A program made the translations under genes and the position numbers. A DNA stretch of 64,000 nucleotides from contig NZ_FQZZ01000003.1 in assembly GCF_900142185.1 (NCBI RefSeq), forward strand, positions 248,001 to 312,000, given 5' to 3'. This document shows, in pieces, positions 16,202 to 20,891 of this stretch. Under the pieces are notes generated by a model, which was given only the letters and a program-made list of their open reading frames with translations, did not search any database and was not told where the DNA came from. This stretch comes from Lutimaribacter pacificus (lineage in GTDB: Bacteria > Pseudomonadota > Alphaproteobacteria > Rhodobacterales > Rhodobacteraceae). The stretch's first letter is position 1. Every line of letters starts with the position of its first letter.

Positions 16202-17494
16202 ATGACAGACGCACCGACCTATGGCTTCGACACGCTGGCCATCCACGCAGGCGCCCGCCCCGACCCGGCCACGGGCGCGCGGCAGACGCCGATCTACCAG
16301 ACCACGGCCTATGTGTTCCGCGATGCCGATCACGCCGCCGCCCTCTTCAACCTGCAGGAGGTGGGATACATCTATTCCCGCCTGACCAACCCCACCGTGG
16401 CGGTGCTGCAGGAACGCGTGGCCACGCTGGAAGGCGGCGCAGGCGCAGTCTGCTGCTCGTCGGGGCACGCGGCGCAGATCATGGCGCTGTTCCCGCTGAT
16501 GGGGCCGGGCCGGAACGTGGTGGTCTCGACCCGGCTTTACGGCGGTTCGATCACCCAGTTCAGCCAGACCATCAAGCGGTTCGGCTGGAACGCGAAATTC
16601 GTCGATTTCGACGATCTGGGCGCGGTCGAGGCCGCGATCGACGATGACACCCGCGCGGTGTTCTGCGAATCCATCGCCAATCCCGGCGGCTATATCACCG
16701 ACCTGGACGCCATCGCGGCCATCGCCGACAAGGCGGGCCTGCCGCTGATCGTCGACAACACCAGCGCCACCCCCTACCTGTGCCGCCCGATCGAGCATGG
16801 CGCGACGCTGGTGGTGCATTCGATGACCAAGTTCCTGACCGGCAACGGCACCGTCACCGGCGGCGTAGTGGTGGATTCGGGCAAGTTCGACTGGTCCGCC
16901 AGCGACAAGTTCCCGTCGCTCAGCGCGCCGGAACCGGCCTATCACGGGCTGAAATTCCACGAAACCTTCGGCCCGCTGGCATTCACCTTCCACGGCATCG
17001 CCATCGGGCTGCGCGACCTCGGCATGACGCTGAACCCGCAGGCGGCGCATTACACGCTGATGGGGATCGAAACGCTGAGCCTGCGGATGGAACGCCACAT
17101 CGAAAACGCCACGAAGATCGCCGAATGGCTGGAAGGCCACGACGCGGTCGAGGGCGTGACCTATGCCGGGCTGAAATCCTCGCCCTATAACGACCGGGTG
17201 GCGCGGATCTGCCCCAAGGGCGCGGGCGGGCTGTTCACCGTGGCGCTGAAGGGCGGCTATGACGCCTGCGTGACATTCGTCGACAGCCTGGAGCTGTTCA
17301 GCCACGTGGCGAACCTGGGCGATACGCGCAGCCTTGTCATCCACTCGGCCTCGACCACGCACCGCCAGCTGACCGAGGACCAGCAGGTTGCCGCGGGCGC
17401 CGCGCCCAACGTGGTGCGCATCTCGATCGGGATCGAGGATGCCGACGACCTGATCCGCGACCTGGACCAGGCACTGGCCAAGGCCGCCGGCTGA
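16202..17494 (+). CDS. metY: O-acetylhomoserine sulfhydrylase (aminocarboxypropyltransferase)
   Basis: A 430-residue PLP enzyme of the Cys/Met metabolism family that joins O-acetylhomoserine with sulfide (or methanethiol) to give homocysteine. The PLP Lys is K210 in HSMTKFLTGNGT. Other family marks are TPIYQTTAYVFRD, YSRLTNPT, SSGHAAQIMAL and the C-terminal VRISIGIEDADDLI. Length and the GNGTVTGGVVVDSG segment favour MetY over cystathionine lyases. GGGAGG lies 5 bases before the ATG. It is preceded by an unusual repeat-rich leader and followed by a clear terminator, so it is probably monocistronic. Confidence 0.93.
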   Translation: MTDAPTYGFDTLAIHAGARPDPATGARQTPIYQTTAYVFRDADHAAALFNLQEVGYIYSRLTNPTVAVLQERVATLEGGAGAVCCSSGHAAQIMALFPLMGPGRNVVVSTRLYGGSITQFSQTIKRFGWNAKFVDFDDLGAVEAAIDDDTRAVFCESIANPGGYITDLDAIAAIADKAGLPLIVDNTSATPYLCRPIEHGATLVVHSMTKFLTGNGTVTGGVVVDSGKFDWSASDKFPSLSAPEPAYHGLKFHETFGPLAFTFHGIAIGLRDLGMTLNPQAAHYTLMGIETLSLRMERHIENATKIAEWLEGHDAVEGVTYAGLKSSPYNDRVARICPKGAGGLFTVALKGGYDACVTFVDSLELFSHVANLGDTRSLVIHSASTTHRQLTEDQQVAAGAAPNVVRISIGIEDADDLIRDLDQALAKAAG

Positions 17495-17574: not shown

Positions 17575-18258
17575 CTAGTTCAACTCATACACCATCGAGA
17601 CCGTGGCGCTCAGGCTGACCTCGCCCTCGGCGATGGGCACGGCGGCGACATCGGCGGCCATCCGCTCCATCATCACCGGGCGCGGCATTCCGCCGCCCGC
17701 CTCGCGGATATCGCGGACCTCGCCCAGCCCGACGCCTGCGGCCTCGGCCAGCAGTTCGGCCTTGCGCCGCGCATCGGCCACGGCGCGGCGGCGGGCCTCG
17801 TCCATCGCCTCCTCCCCGTCCTGCAGGGTGAAGGAAATACCGTCGATCCGGTTCGCGCCATCGCCGACCAGCGCCCCCAGAACCGCGCCGGTGCTGGGCA
17901 GGTCGCGCACCCGCACCAGGACCGAGTTCATCGCCTCGAACCCGACGACCCGGCGCGTCCGCGTGCCGCTGCTGTTCTCGTAAACCGGGTTCAGCGAAAG
18001 CTGGGTCGTCTGGATGTCGCGCGGCTCGATCCCCTGCCCGGCAAGCTGGGCCTGCATCCGCGTCATCGCCTCGGAGGCGCGCGACAGCGCGACCTCGGCC
18101 GACTTGTCCTGTTCCACCACGCCCACGCGGATCACCGCCATGTCGGGCGCGCGCGCCACCTCGCCGGTGCCGGTCACGGTCAGCACGCGCGCGGCATCCT
18201 CGGCCCATGCGGTGGCGGGTGCCAGCGTCAGAAGCGCGCAGATCAAGATATTTCTCAT
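17575..18258 (-). CDS. SIMPL-domain (DUF541) periplasmic protein
   Basis: A 227-residue exported protein. The signal peptide MRNILICALLTLAPATAWA is followed by the SIMPL domain: VLTVTGTGEVARAPDMAVIRVGV at the start, the central GFEAMNSVLVRVRDL and the EARRRAVADARRKAELLAEA helix. Members form oligomeric rings in the periplasm or outer membrane; some, such as BP26, are antigens, and E. coli YggE lowers oxidative stress. GGAGGG lies 5 bases before the ATG. It is convergent with metY and divergent from the gene at 18423. Confidence 0.88.
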   Translation of the reverse strand: MRNILICALLTLAPATAWAEDAARVLTVTGTGEVARAPDMAVIRVGVVEQDKSAEVALSRASEAMTRMQAQLAGQGIEPRDIQTTQLSLNPVYENSSGTRTRRVVGFEAMNSVLVRVRDLPSTGAVLGALVGDGANRIDGISFTLQDGEEAMDEARRRAVADARRKAELLAEAAGVGLGEVRDIREAGGGMPRPVMMERMAADVAAVPIAEGEVSLSATVSMVYELN

Positions 18259-18422: not shown

Positions 18423-20891
18423 ATGAAACCGAATTTCGCCCTTGTCCTTTCATTCGACGGTATCCGCCTGCTGCATCGCGCGCCGGCGGGCTGGTTGCGC
18501 GTGGGCGCGGCGGCGCTGGACGCCCCCGATCTGACCGCCGAGCTGGAGGGGGTGCGGGGCAAGGCGCTGCGGCTCGATCCCGGCGGGATACGGGCCAAGC
18601 TGGTGATCCCGAACGAGCAGATCCGCTATCTCACCATCGAAACCGGGGACCTGGACGAGGGCGACATCCCTGCCCGGGTGCGCGATGCGCTGGATGGCGC
18701 GACGCCTTACGCGGTCGGGGACCTGGCCTTTGACTGGGCCCGCGACGGAGCACAGACCCATATCGCGGCGGTCGCGCGCGAAACGCTGGACGAGGCCGAG
18801 GATTTCGCCACCGAACATGCGTTCAACCCGGTCAGTTTCGTGGCAATCCCGCCCGAAGGCGCGTTTTCCGGCGAGCCGTTCTTTGGCCCCGCGCCCTCGT
18901 CGGCGGGCTGGCTGCCCGCGACCGAAAGCCTGACGCGCGATTTGCAACCGATCCGCGTGGTCGGCCGGGCCGAGGTGCCCGCCGCGCCGCCGCCGACCGC
19001 CCCGGAGCAGGATGAACCGGCGGAAAGCGCCCCGGTGGCCGAGGCCGAAGCGGATGTTCAGGAGGGTGCGCCCGACACCCCCGAAGCCGCATCGCAGGCA
19101 GCGGACGACGCGCCCGAAGCCGCGCCGTCAGACGCGGACACGCCCGAAACCGTGCCGGAGCCGGACGATACGCCCGAAACCGACGAGACCGGGGAGGAAG
19201 AGGCACCGCCGCTTGCCGTGCCGGTGGAAACACCGCCCGTCCCGGCCTTTTCGTCGATTCGCGCCGCGCGCGACGAGGTGCCGCCACCGCCACGGGTCAG
19301 CGCCACCGCCCCGGTGATCGAGCTTGAGGACGACTTGCCCGGGGCGCCACCGGTCACCGGCAAACCGGCGGCCGCGAAACCGGCGCGCGACGTGCATTTC
19401 ACCGGCCCCGCCCGCCCCGACGGTGACGCAGGGCAGGACAGTGGCGGGTTCTTTTCGCGCCGTGGCGGCAGCGAGGCCCGCAAGGCGCCCGCCCCGCCCC
19501 GACCCGCGCCGATCCCCCCCGCGCCGCCCGACCTGAGCGCCAGCCTGCTGGCCACCGCGCCCGCCGCAGCCGATCCCGAGACCGAGCGCCAGCGCATGAC
19601 GATCTTCGGCGCGCGCCAACCCGCCAGGCCCCGCGCGCAGGTGGGCGGCAAGCCGCGTTACCTTGGGCTGATCCTGACCGTGGCGTTGCTGCTGTTCCTT
19701 GCCGGTGTCGCGGCCTGGGCCTCGATCTTTTCCGACGAGGGGCTGTCGCGGCTGTGGGGGCCGGTCGAAACCGAGGTGGTGACCCTGCCCGACGAGGGCA
19801 CGGCGCCCATAGATACGCTTGAAATCGAGGGCGACGAGGCGCTGAGCGGAGAGGACGAGATCGACCTGGCAGCGGTCGATCCAACGGCGCTGCCCGATAC
19901 CCTGCTGCCCGAGGATACCCCCGAAACGCTGGCCCAGCCCGCCCCGCTGCCCGACCTGACCCCGGAAGAGGCCGCCGTGCGCTATGCCGCGACGGGCATC
20001 TGGCAGATGGCGCCCGAGCCGCCCGAAACGCCCGGTTTCACCCAGCTTGACGAGCTTTACACCGCCTCGATCGACCCGAAGGTCGATACCGGGGACGCGG
20101 TGGCGCTGCCGCCGGTGTCGGCGCTTCTGGGCGACGCCATGATGGAACCGCAGGCCTCGCCCGCGGCACCGGGAACCGCCTTCGACCTTGACGAGCGCGG
20201 GCTGGTGCGCGCCACGCCCGAGGGCGCGCTGACCCCCGACGGGATACCGGTCTATGCCGGTCGCCCGCCGCTGTTGCCCGCGCGGCTGCCCACCCGGTTC
20301 GAACAGACCCCGCAAGAAATCACCGAGGATCTGGCACGGCTGGCCGCGTTCCGCCCGCGCACGCGCCCCGGCGACCTTGTGCAGCAGAACGAACGCAGCA
20401 ACCTGGGCGGGCTGACCCGCGACGAACTGGCCGAGATCCGCCCGCGCCTGCGCCCCGAGGCCGCCAAGGCCGAGGAAGAGGTCGACGAAACCGCGACCGC
20501 GCAGGCGGTTGGCGCCTCGCTCAAGCCGCGTGTCCGGCCGTCGAACATCGCCCAGATCGTGCAGCGCGCCGAAAGCATCGAGCGCACACAGCCCGTGCAG
20601 ACCGCCGCCGTGGTGGCCCCGCGCACCGTCAGCCCCAGCGTCCCCTCCAGCGCCAGCGTCGCGCGCGAGGCCACGGTGCAGAACGCCATCCGGCTGAACC
20701 GCGTGAACCTGATCGGCGTCTACGGCAAACCTTCCAGCCGCCGCGCGCTGGTGCGGATGTCGAACGGGCGCTACGTCAAGGTGCAGGTGGGCGACCGGCT
20801 GGATGGCGGCCGCGTGCAGGCCATCGGCGAAAGCGAGCTGAGCTATGTCAAGAACGGCCGCGCCGTCACCCTGACCATGCCGCGGGGGTAA
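18423..20891 (+). CDS. PilM/GspL-like to PilP/GspC-like single-span membrane protein
   Basis: An 822-residue protein with three parts. Residues 1-170 (MKPNFALVLSFDGIRLLHR... TIETGDLDEGDIPARVRDALD) look like the cytoplasmic PilM/GspL fold. Residues 180-400 are low-complexity, rich in Pro, Glu and Asp. One membrane helix at about 413-435 (YLGLILTVALLLFLAGVAAW) is followed by a long periplasmic linker. The C-terminal 60 residues (VNLIGVYGKPSSRRALVRM... GDRLDGGRVQAIGESELSY) resemble the PilP/GspC homology region. The assignment is by pattern, not search. No other pilus or type II secretion gene adjoins it, so its partners must be elsewhere. It may have been annotated as a translation factor because of the repetitive middle. 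Confidence 0.6.
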   Translation: MKPNFALVLSFDGIRLLHRAPAGWLRVGAAALDAPDLTAELEGVRGKALRLDPGGIRAKLVIPNEQIRYLTIETGDLDEGDIPARVRDALDGATPYAVGDLAFDWARDGAQTHIAAVARETLDEAEDFATEHAFNPVSFVAIPPEGAFSGEPFFGPAPSSAGWLPATESLTRDLQPIRVVGRAEVPAAPPPTAPEQDEPAESAPVAEAEADVQEGAPDTPEAASQAADDAPEAAPSDADTPETVPEPDDTPETDETGEEEAPPLAVPVETPPVPAFSSIRAARDEVPPPPRVSATAPVIELEDDLPGAPPVTGKPAAAKPARDVHFTGPARPDGDAGQDSGGFFSRRGGSEARKAPAPPRPAPIPPAPPDLSASLLATAPAAADPETERQRMTIFGARQPARPRAQVGGKPRYLGLILTVALLLFLAGVAAWASIFSDEGLSRLWGPVETEVVTLPDEGTAPIDTLEIEGDEALSGEDEIDLAAVDPTALPDTLLPEDTPETLAQPAPLPDLTPEEAAVRYAATGIWQMAPEPPETPGFTQLDELYTASIDPKVDTGDAVALPPVSALLGDAMMEPQASPAAPGTAFDLDERGLVRATPEGALTPDGIPVYAGRPPLLPARLPTRFEQTPQEITEDLARLAAFRPRTRPGDLVQQNERSNLGGLTRDELAEIRPRLRPEAAKAEEEVDETATAQAVGASLKPRVRPSNIAQIVQRAESIERTQPVQTAAVVAPRTVSPSVPSSASVAREATVQNAIRLNRVNLIGVYGKPSSRRALVRMSNGRYVKVQVGDRLDGGRVQAIGESELSYVKNGRAVTLTMPRG

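Follow-up and report, generated by a model that had tools for sequence, protein, structure and literature searches.

The window, a stretch of 64,000 nucleotides from Lutimaribacter pacificus, carries on contig C3 of its genome (G000) a gene for a protein of 822 residues, in which a GspL/PilM-like domain, predicted to be the first half of an actin-like fold, and an HR domain of the PilP/GspC type are joined in one chain through a single membrane helix. Both domains are near-universal in the family Rhodobacteraceae, and the gene lies at a locus where relatives carry separate gspL, gspM and gspC genes; these two observations go beyond the earlier note on this DNA. The fused gene is probably a collapsed GspC-GspL-GspM (C-L-M) platform of type II secretion, and the account favoured here, with moderate confidence, is that of a single-chain descendant of this platform, still at the ancestral locus and reused as an envelope tether. 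If so, a secretion platform has shrunk to a single protein with a new use, both stages, separate and fused, can still be read at one locus, and the gene would be a minimal test case for the C-L-M platform and for the HR domain without a secretin. Nearly every sampled member of this large bacterial family has kept the gene, and its domains are recognisable; part of an old export machine thus seems to be retained for another job in the cell envelope, though the machine itself is often missing.

Build of the fused protein

The gene had previously been described as a fusion of 822 residues with a PilM/GspL-like start, an acidic, Pro-rich linker, one membrane helix and a GspC/PilP-like end, and this description was borne out in all its parts (Table 1). 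Indeed, the 822-codon frame is open, and the same build is conserved in the window protein and 42 orthologues as well as in 14 more divergent fusions.

Table 1. Parts of the fused gene and the two synteny anchors beside it (positions are those of the window)
Feature	Residues	Position	Strand	Basis
Whole gene, fused GspL/PilM-like N domain and PilP/GspC-like HR domain, 822 aa	1-822	18423..20891	+	open frame; orthologues of like build
Half-actin GspL/PilM-like domain (predicted first half of the fold; subdomains 1A+1C by comparison)	1-156	18423..18890	+	AlphaFold2, Foldseek, VIA-align
Acidic, Ala/Pro-rich linker	157-410	18891..19652	+	composition; conservation in 43 aligned sequences
Single transmembrane helix	~411-438	19653..19736	+	hydropathy only; membrane segment in each of the 43 aligned sequences
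Arm, presumably periplasmic	439-760	19737..20702	+	conservation; motif count
HR domain (PilP/GspC fold)	761-822	20703..20888	+	TIGR03021 below cut-off; profile against PDB sequences; fold search
O-acetylhomoserine sulfhydrylase-like gene (metY), synteny anchor		16202..17494	+	present in fetched regions of relatives
SIMPL-type gene, divergent neighbour, second synteny anchor		17575..18258	-	also in L068 beside separate gspL-gspM-gspC

Residues 1-170 were modelled with AlphaFold2 (mean pLDDT 94.4, pTM 0.89), and the predicted model shows the actin-type fold that had been set beforehand as the check on the PilM/GspL-like start. In Foldseek, GspL or PilM chains take all of ranks 1-15, with E from 2.3e-8 to 1.3e-5, and FtsA comes next, and in VIA-align the best match is EpsL (Z 11.3, rmsd 3.4, 147 residues). 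The solved structures in the PDB that lie closest to this model are GspL (PulL, EpsL) and PilM, then FtsA; chains of 3jc8 were counted as PilM and PilP by their labels. The N-domain sequence profile gave only chance-level matches against PDB sequences (best E 0.47), so that the assignment rests on the predicted structure, and no curated GspL or PilM model of Pfam or NCBIfam matched the window protein up to E 10. As modelled, the N domain is the first half of an actin-like fold, nearest to GspL/PilM. The second half, as in PilM, is absent: the conserved folded part ends near residue 156, and the stretch that follows is of low complexity and poorly conserved, its place being taken in the divergent fusions by the membrane segment, which comes at once.

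At the other end of the chain, residues 761-822 form an HR beta fold of the PilP/GspC type, as judged from sequence profiles and predicted structure, so that the second fold set beforehand as a check is likewise present in the predicted model. The NCBIfam model TIGR03021 (pilP_fam) matches residues 721-803 with E 5.4e-7 and 30.7 bits, below its cut-off of 34.65, and the Pfam PilP model (PF04351) gives E 0.079 and 13.3 bits, its cut-off of 25.6 not being reached. When the HR profile was compared with PDB sequences, GspC (7oio) came first (E 0.0082) and PilP (2y4x) next (E 0.0088). The AlphaFold2 model of residues 720-822 has a mean pLDDT of 76.7 and a pTM of 0.56, with block means of 92-94 in the HR core. 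Foldseek places PilP or GspC chains at ranks 1-6 for this model, only rank 1 lying below E 0.001 (3.8e-4) and rank 6 standing at 0.062, and the best VIA-align match is 3oss_C, from a GspC-GspD complex (Z 10.0, rmsd 1.5, 60 residues).

Between the two folds, composition and hydropathy distinguish a linker rich in acidic residues, proline and alanine from a single hydrophobic segment; the N domain is presumably cytoplasmic, and the arm of about 320 residues that separates the membrane helix from the HR domain presumably lies in the periplasm. In the alignment of 43 sequences, more conserved short stretches are found at residues 271-280 and 391-400 of the window protein's linker, the latter preceding the membrane helix, and at 521-530, 591-610, 641-650 and 661-680 of its arm. 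The arm also contains xPRxRP motifs starting at residues 644, 673 and 701. Across the 43 proteins, the pattern around this motif occurs 1.65 times per protein versus 0.053 times in shuffled proteins, a comparison that overstates its significance because the shuffle control preserves whole-protein and not local composition; at least one copy is present in 35 of the 43 and at least three in 10. A juxtamembrane linker pattern is present in 30/43 sequences, and both patterns were chosen after the alignment had been inspected.

Being long and variable with few conserved stretches, the acidic linker between the N domain and the membrane in the main group is not what one would expect of a tether that is purely rigid. 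It would suit a signal relay, in which an envelope ligand or stress is sensed by the periplasmic arm and the HR domain, and a cytoplasmic partner is informed through the half-actin domain. Such a relay is nevertheless improbable, given that the Pfam and NCBIfam scans of the chain report no domain of a kinase, transcription or second-messenger kind and that the neighbours conserved around the gene provide no functional or recognisable regulatory hint.

Other candidates were rejected in the course of the analysis: an arm with a hidden PilN-, PilO- or GspM-like domain (neither Pfam nor NCBIfam reports one up to E 10), a phage protein (no PHROGs family up to E 1), a chance resemblance of a low-complexity protein (the folds and the conservation), and an assembly artefact (the build recurs in other assemblies).

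Spread and conservation in the Rhodobacteraceae

Among 40 genomes, the window's own included, 23 match, that is 23 of the 24 family members in this set. In a draw of 340 genomes from the class, 7 match, of which 6 belong to the same family and one, a weak match (E 3.7e-4), lies outside it. A survey of 296 Rhodobacteraceae genomes, at least 95% complete and taken at about one per genus, gave matches to the N-domain profile in 283 and to the HR profile in 293; these counts show the domains and not the fusion, because the N count takes in separate GspL-like genes (G019, G212, G072) and because in many genomes a small paralogue is also picked up by the HR profile. The presence of the two domains in a single frame was established in the loci read, a subset of the 296 genomes.

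The window protein and its 42 orthologues, which had been picked as full-length, each contain a membrane segment as well as both domains; L083 has one further hydrophobic stretch. The alignment of these proteins includes 15 sequences from the first 20 regions, after removal of L037 (cut by the contig end), L048 and L050 (split and HR only, respectively) and L049 and L051 (divergent), and 27 from a second set of 32 loci, after removal of L072 (from the same genome as L032) and of L077, L080, L093 and L101, which we read as partial. Both domains are likewise found in 14/14 of the more divergent fusions, which were drawn from loci already known as fused, and across these and the 43 the arm is at least 242 residues long. 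The linker before the membrane helix has a median length of 23 residues in the divergent fusions versus 318 in the main group. In two of the 14 the best hydrophobic window stays below the threshold of 1.7 (1.48 in G138, 1.68 in G108), so that their membrane helix is less sure. In three Boseongicola loci (L094, L096, L098), the HR domain is 63-67% identical to that of the window protein and the N domain 29-32%; the two ends evolve unevenly.

Against the same-genus relative G001, dN/dS is 0.119 for the N domain and 0.117 for the HR domain, and three further pairs, some with dS >1, give 0.205-0.336 (N) and 0.206-0.373 (HR). These ratios bear on the idea that the gene is a decaying leftover without function, which could be read from the separate operon persisting in few genomes, from the 13 of 296 genomes missed by the N profile and from the splitting of the gene in G016 and G077. 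In view of the low dN/dS of about 0.12 in both domains and of the profile matches in nearly all genomes of the survey, such conservation makes a leftover very unlikely, to the point of being hardly credible.

A plasmid search returned two partial relatives, one in an unannotated record and one annotated as a hypothetical protein. Furthermore, a small HR/PilP-like protein is encoded elsewhere, in L052 (9267-9608, minus strand; G000:C1:917275-917514), L053 (9228-9491), L054 (9131-9460), L055 (9166-9486) and L056 (8942-9334). As read, it has 87-130 residues and no visible signal sequence, and a cytoplasmic HR domain would be odd. In L052 and L053 its gene lies between two genes that we take to be purF-like and short-chain dehydrogenase-like.

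The locus and the probable origin of the fusion

The names metY, SIMPL, Lrp, KefC and purF given to neighbouring genes are our presumption from reading the sequences. With metY as anchor, the fetched region contains this gene together with the fused gene or its parts in 18/20 regions of the first set (L032-L051) and in 13/20 of the second (L119-L138), which was selected for weak or missing matches and includes some short contigs.

At this same locus, G212 (L068) has separate gspL-gspM-gspC genes, which adjoin SIMPL and metY. Its gspL encodes a PilN domain (Pfam 6e-5, above cut-off), its gspM matches T2SSM_b (7.7e-11) and its gspC matches T2SSC (1.7e-4, below cut-off). In G019 (L071), one contig end carries metY, then a GspE-like gene (T2SSE 3.1e-32, MshEN 6.9e-16), then a GspL-like gene running off the contig, and the end of another contig carries a GspM-like gene (T2SSM_b 4.6e-8) and a GspC-like gene; the L and M genes are presumably adjacent across the contig break. 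The three genes are contiguous in G072 (L070), with no metY found in the 19.5 kb read, and G010 (L069) has gspM-gspC at a contig end. A search with the GspM-like protein of G019 found matches in 6/295 family genomes, two of them weak (E 1.9e-4 and 7.2e-4), and those of G019, G212, G010 and G072 look real. The GspE-like protein of G019 (L059/L071 1017-3896, minus strand) has its MshEN match at residues 200-285; a long stretch of low complexity follows, and ATPase matches begin only at about residue 735.

The fused and the separate proteins resemble one another in their build. Indeed, the GspL-like proteins of L068 and L070 have a membrane segment right behind a half-actin N domain sized like the fused one, and in the fused proteins of G119 and G006 the membrane segment lies 20 and 26 residues past the N domain, as in the separate GspL-like proteins. 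In an RpoB tree, the separate-gene genomes G019, G212 and G072 group together (SH-aLRT support 93) and join four outgroups (93), apart from 22 fused, split or HR-only genomes; the tree is a quick search on one gene in 29 genomes (30 were asked, G010 giving no RpoB match), and the long branches of the separate-gene genomes and outgroups make attraction possible.

Descent from a C-L-M platform is supported by the locus shared with separate gspL-gspM-gspC genes and by the RpoB tree, and the direction of change is inferred by parsimony. The collapse of one L-M-C operon is the simplest account, since the reverse would need the regain of GspM and of the PilN domain at that very place. After the collapse, the simplest account is splitting in some lines (G016, G077) and loss of the N part in others (G017, G229). 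In G016 and G077, which lie on long branches of the RpoB tree and are probably secondary splits, the N part and the HR part are two neighbouring genes (L048 8860-9528 and 9510-10343; L136 6606-7388 and 6115-6570). HR-only relatives, with no N domain detected beside them, stand at the locus in L050 (9051-9722) and L122 (5822-6643); the protein of L050 begins with a signal-like sequence and contains PRPRP repeats.

Secretin context, proposed function and known systems

A single secretin match was found in the window genome, in a Tad locus on contig C1 together with T2SSE, TadB_TadC_N, T2SSF and RcpC matches; further T2SSE matches are four partial ones on other contigs. The pseudopilin PF08334 has no match in this genome, and contig C3 has no secretin, pseudopilin or T2SSE match, in agreement, for these three families, with the claim that no pilus gene is nearby.

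Across the family, a secretin match is present in 266/296 genomes and none was found in the other 30 (20 listed directly, 10 derived by comparing match lists), the survey relying on one profile, PF00263, which may miss divergent secretins. Both domains occur in 25/30 genomes without a detected secretin versus 257/266 with one (Fisher p 0.008). The secretin-less exceptions are G048 (no HR domain), G108, G266 and G281 (no N domain) and G331 (neither); if one adds the weak N-domain matches that lie within fused frames in G108, G266 and G148, the figures become 27/30 versus 258/266 (p 0.09). A secretin is therefore not required for retention, and an association of the two domains with secretin systems is possible. 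The earlier note's suggestion of a single-protein link used in another machine gains support from the 25 genomes, the machine itself remaining a proposal.

The position of the window genome's only secretin match and the higher frequency of both domains where a secretin is found would also fit a role in the Tad pilus, as an accessory platform in the inner membrane that adds to RcpC/CpaB; the Tad secretin would then be the docking site of the HR domain, and the TadA/TadB/TadC side that of the half-actin domain. This reading seems unlikely, because both domains occur in 25 of the 30 genomes without a detected secretin, and because the Tad locus has its own RcpC and lies on C1, whereas the gene lies on C3. 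A second possibility, that the protein does the work of GspL and GspC in any type II secretion system a genome may have, is compatible with the PF08334 match in 6/21 genomes tested, the fused G003 and G007 among them. As a general function it is highly improbable, since the remaining 15/21, the window's own included, have no PF08334 match yet carry the gene, its parts or separate genes. The separate-gene G212 and G019 also have no PF08334 match, and each has one secretin about 3 kb from a TadA-type T2SSE match, at what are presumably Tad loci; the platform may therefore have left type II secretion before the fusion.

A secretin-independent envelope tether is accordingly taken here as the best reading. 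In an ancestor of the family, the chromosomal locus of the fused gene would have carried a C-L-M assembly platform like that of type II secretion. Two parts of this platform would have survived and been joined: from GspL the cytoplasmic half-actin end together with the membrane helix, and from GspC the HR end. GspM would have been lost, as would the periplasmic PilN-like domain of GspL and, in lines that once had it, the ATPase; in relatives with separate genes the cytoplasmic end of GspL is already only half-actin. In the resulting protein, the N domain would hold an inner-membrane partner by its cytoplasmic tail, in the way that PilM holds PilN and FtsA holds FtsN, the flexible arm of at least about 240 residues would span the periplasm, and the HR domain would dock to a periplasmic or outer-membrane partner, not necessarily a secretin. 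In PilM and FtsA, the tails of PilN and FtsN are bound by a cleft between subdomains IA and IC (PMC7613929), and these two subdomains are the part retained in the N domain of the window protein. The XpsCLM complex of Xanthomonas forms independently of the secretin (PMC11981180). Taken together, the retained subdomains, the binding of tails in their cleft and the formation of XpsCLM without a secretin point to a tether. More tentatively, and with rather less confidence than for the tether, the gene could belong to a near-universal, secretin-independent envelope machine of the family, the core of which would be a one-chain platform joining a new cytoplasmic/inner-membrane complex to a new periplasmic/outer-membrane partner.

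In the open-licence papers searched, neither this gene nor any fusion of GspL with GspC was found to be described. To our knowledge, the nearest known relatives in build are PilO2 and BfpC. In these proteins of type IVb pili (PF06864), two domains are joined by one membrane helix and the actin-like N domain has up to 194 residues; they are encoded in pilus operons, PilP is a separate gene in R64-type operons, and the accessible part of the source describes no HR domain in them (PMC3984277). PF06864 does not match the window protein up to E 10, and the PilO2/BfpC structures 3VHJ and 4BYZ are not among the 50 structure matches listed for the N domain. FtsA, unlike the window protein, has a whole actin-like fold and is not known to have an HR domain. 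It follows GspL and PilM in the Foldseek ranking, and its likeness lies in the IA-IC cleft, which binds the tail of a bitopic protein; FtsA itself binds the membrane via a C-terminal amphipathic helix (PMC7613929).

PilM-PilN-PilO-PilP of type IV pili shares the PilM-like fold and the PilP HR fold with the window protein, in which they stand at the two ends of one chain. By contrast with that system, the window protein is fused, no PilN or PilO domain is reported in it, and its contig is the one without a secretin, pseudopilin or T2SSE match. The GspC-GspL-GspM assembly (XpsCLM) likewise contains both end domains, and its genes are separate at the shared locus in relatives. In this platform GspC, GspL and GspM are separate proteins, as also in L068 and L070, whereas the window protein is one chain with no reported GspM or PilN-like domain and with only half of the actin-like fold. 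Furthermore, such a platform would be expected together with its own secretin, GspE and pseudopilins in one genome, whereas the window genome has no pseudopilin match and its secretin lies in the Tad locus. In G003, which also carries the fused gene, two loci (C8:113340-120411 and C1:398414-406176) each combine matches to a secretin, a pseudopilin and T2SSE in a span of less than 8 kb.
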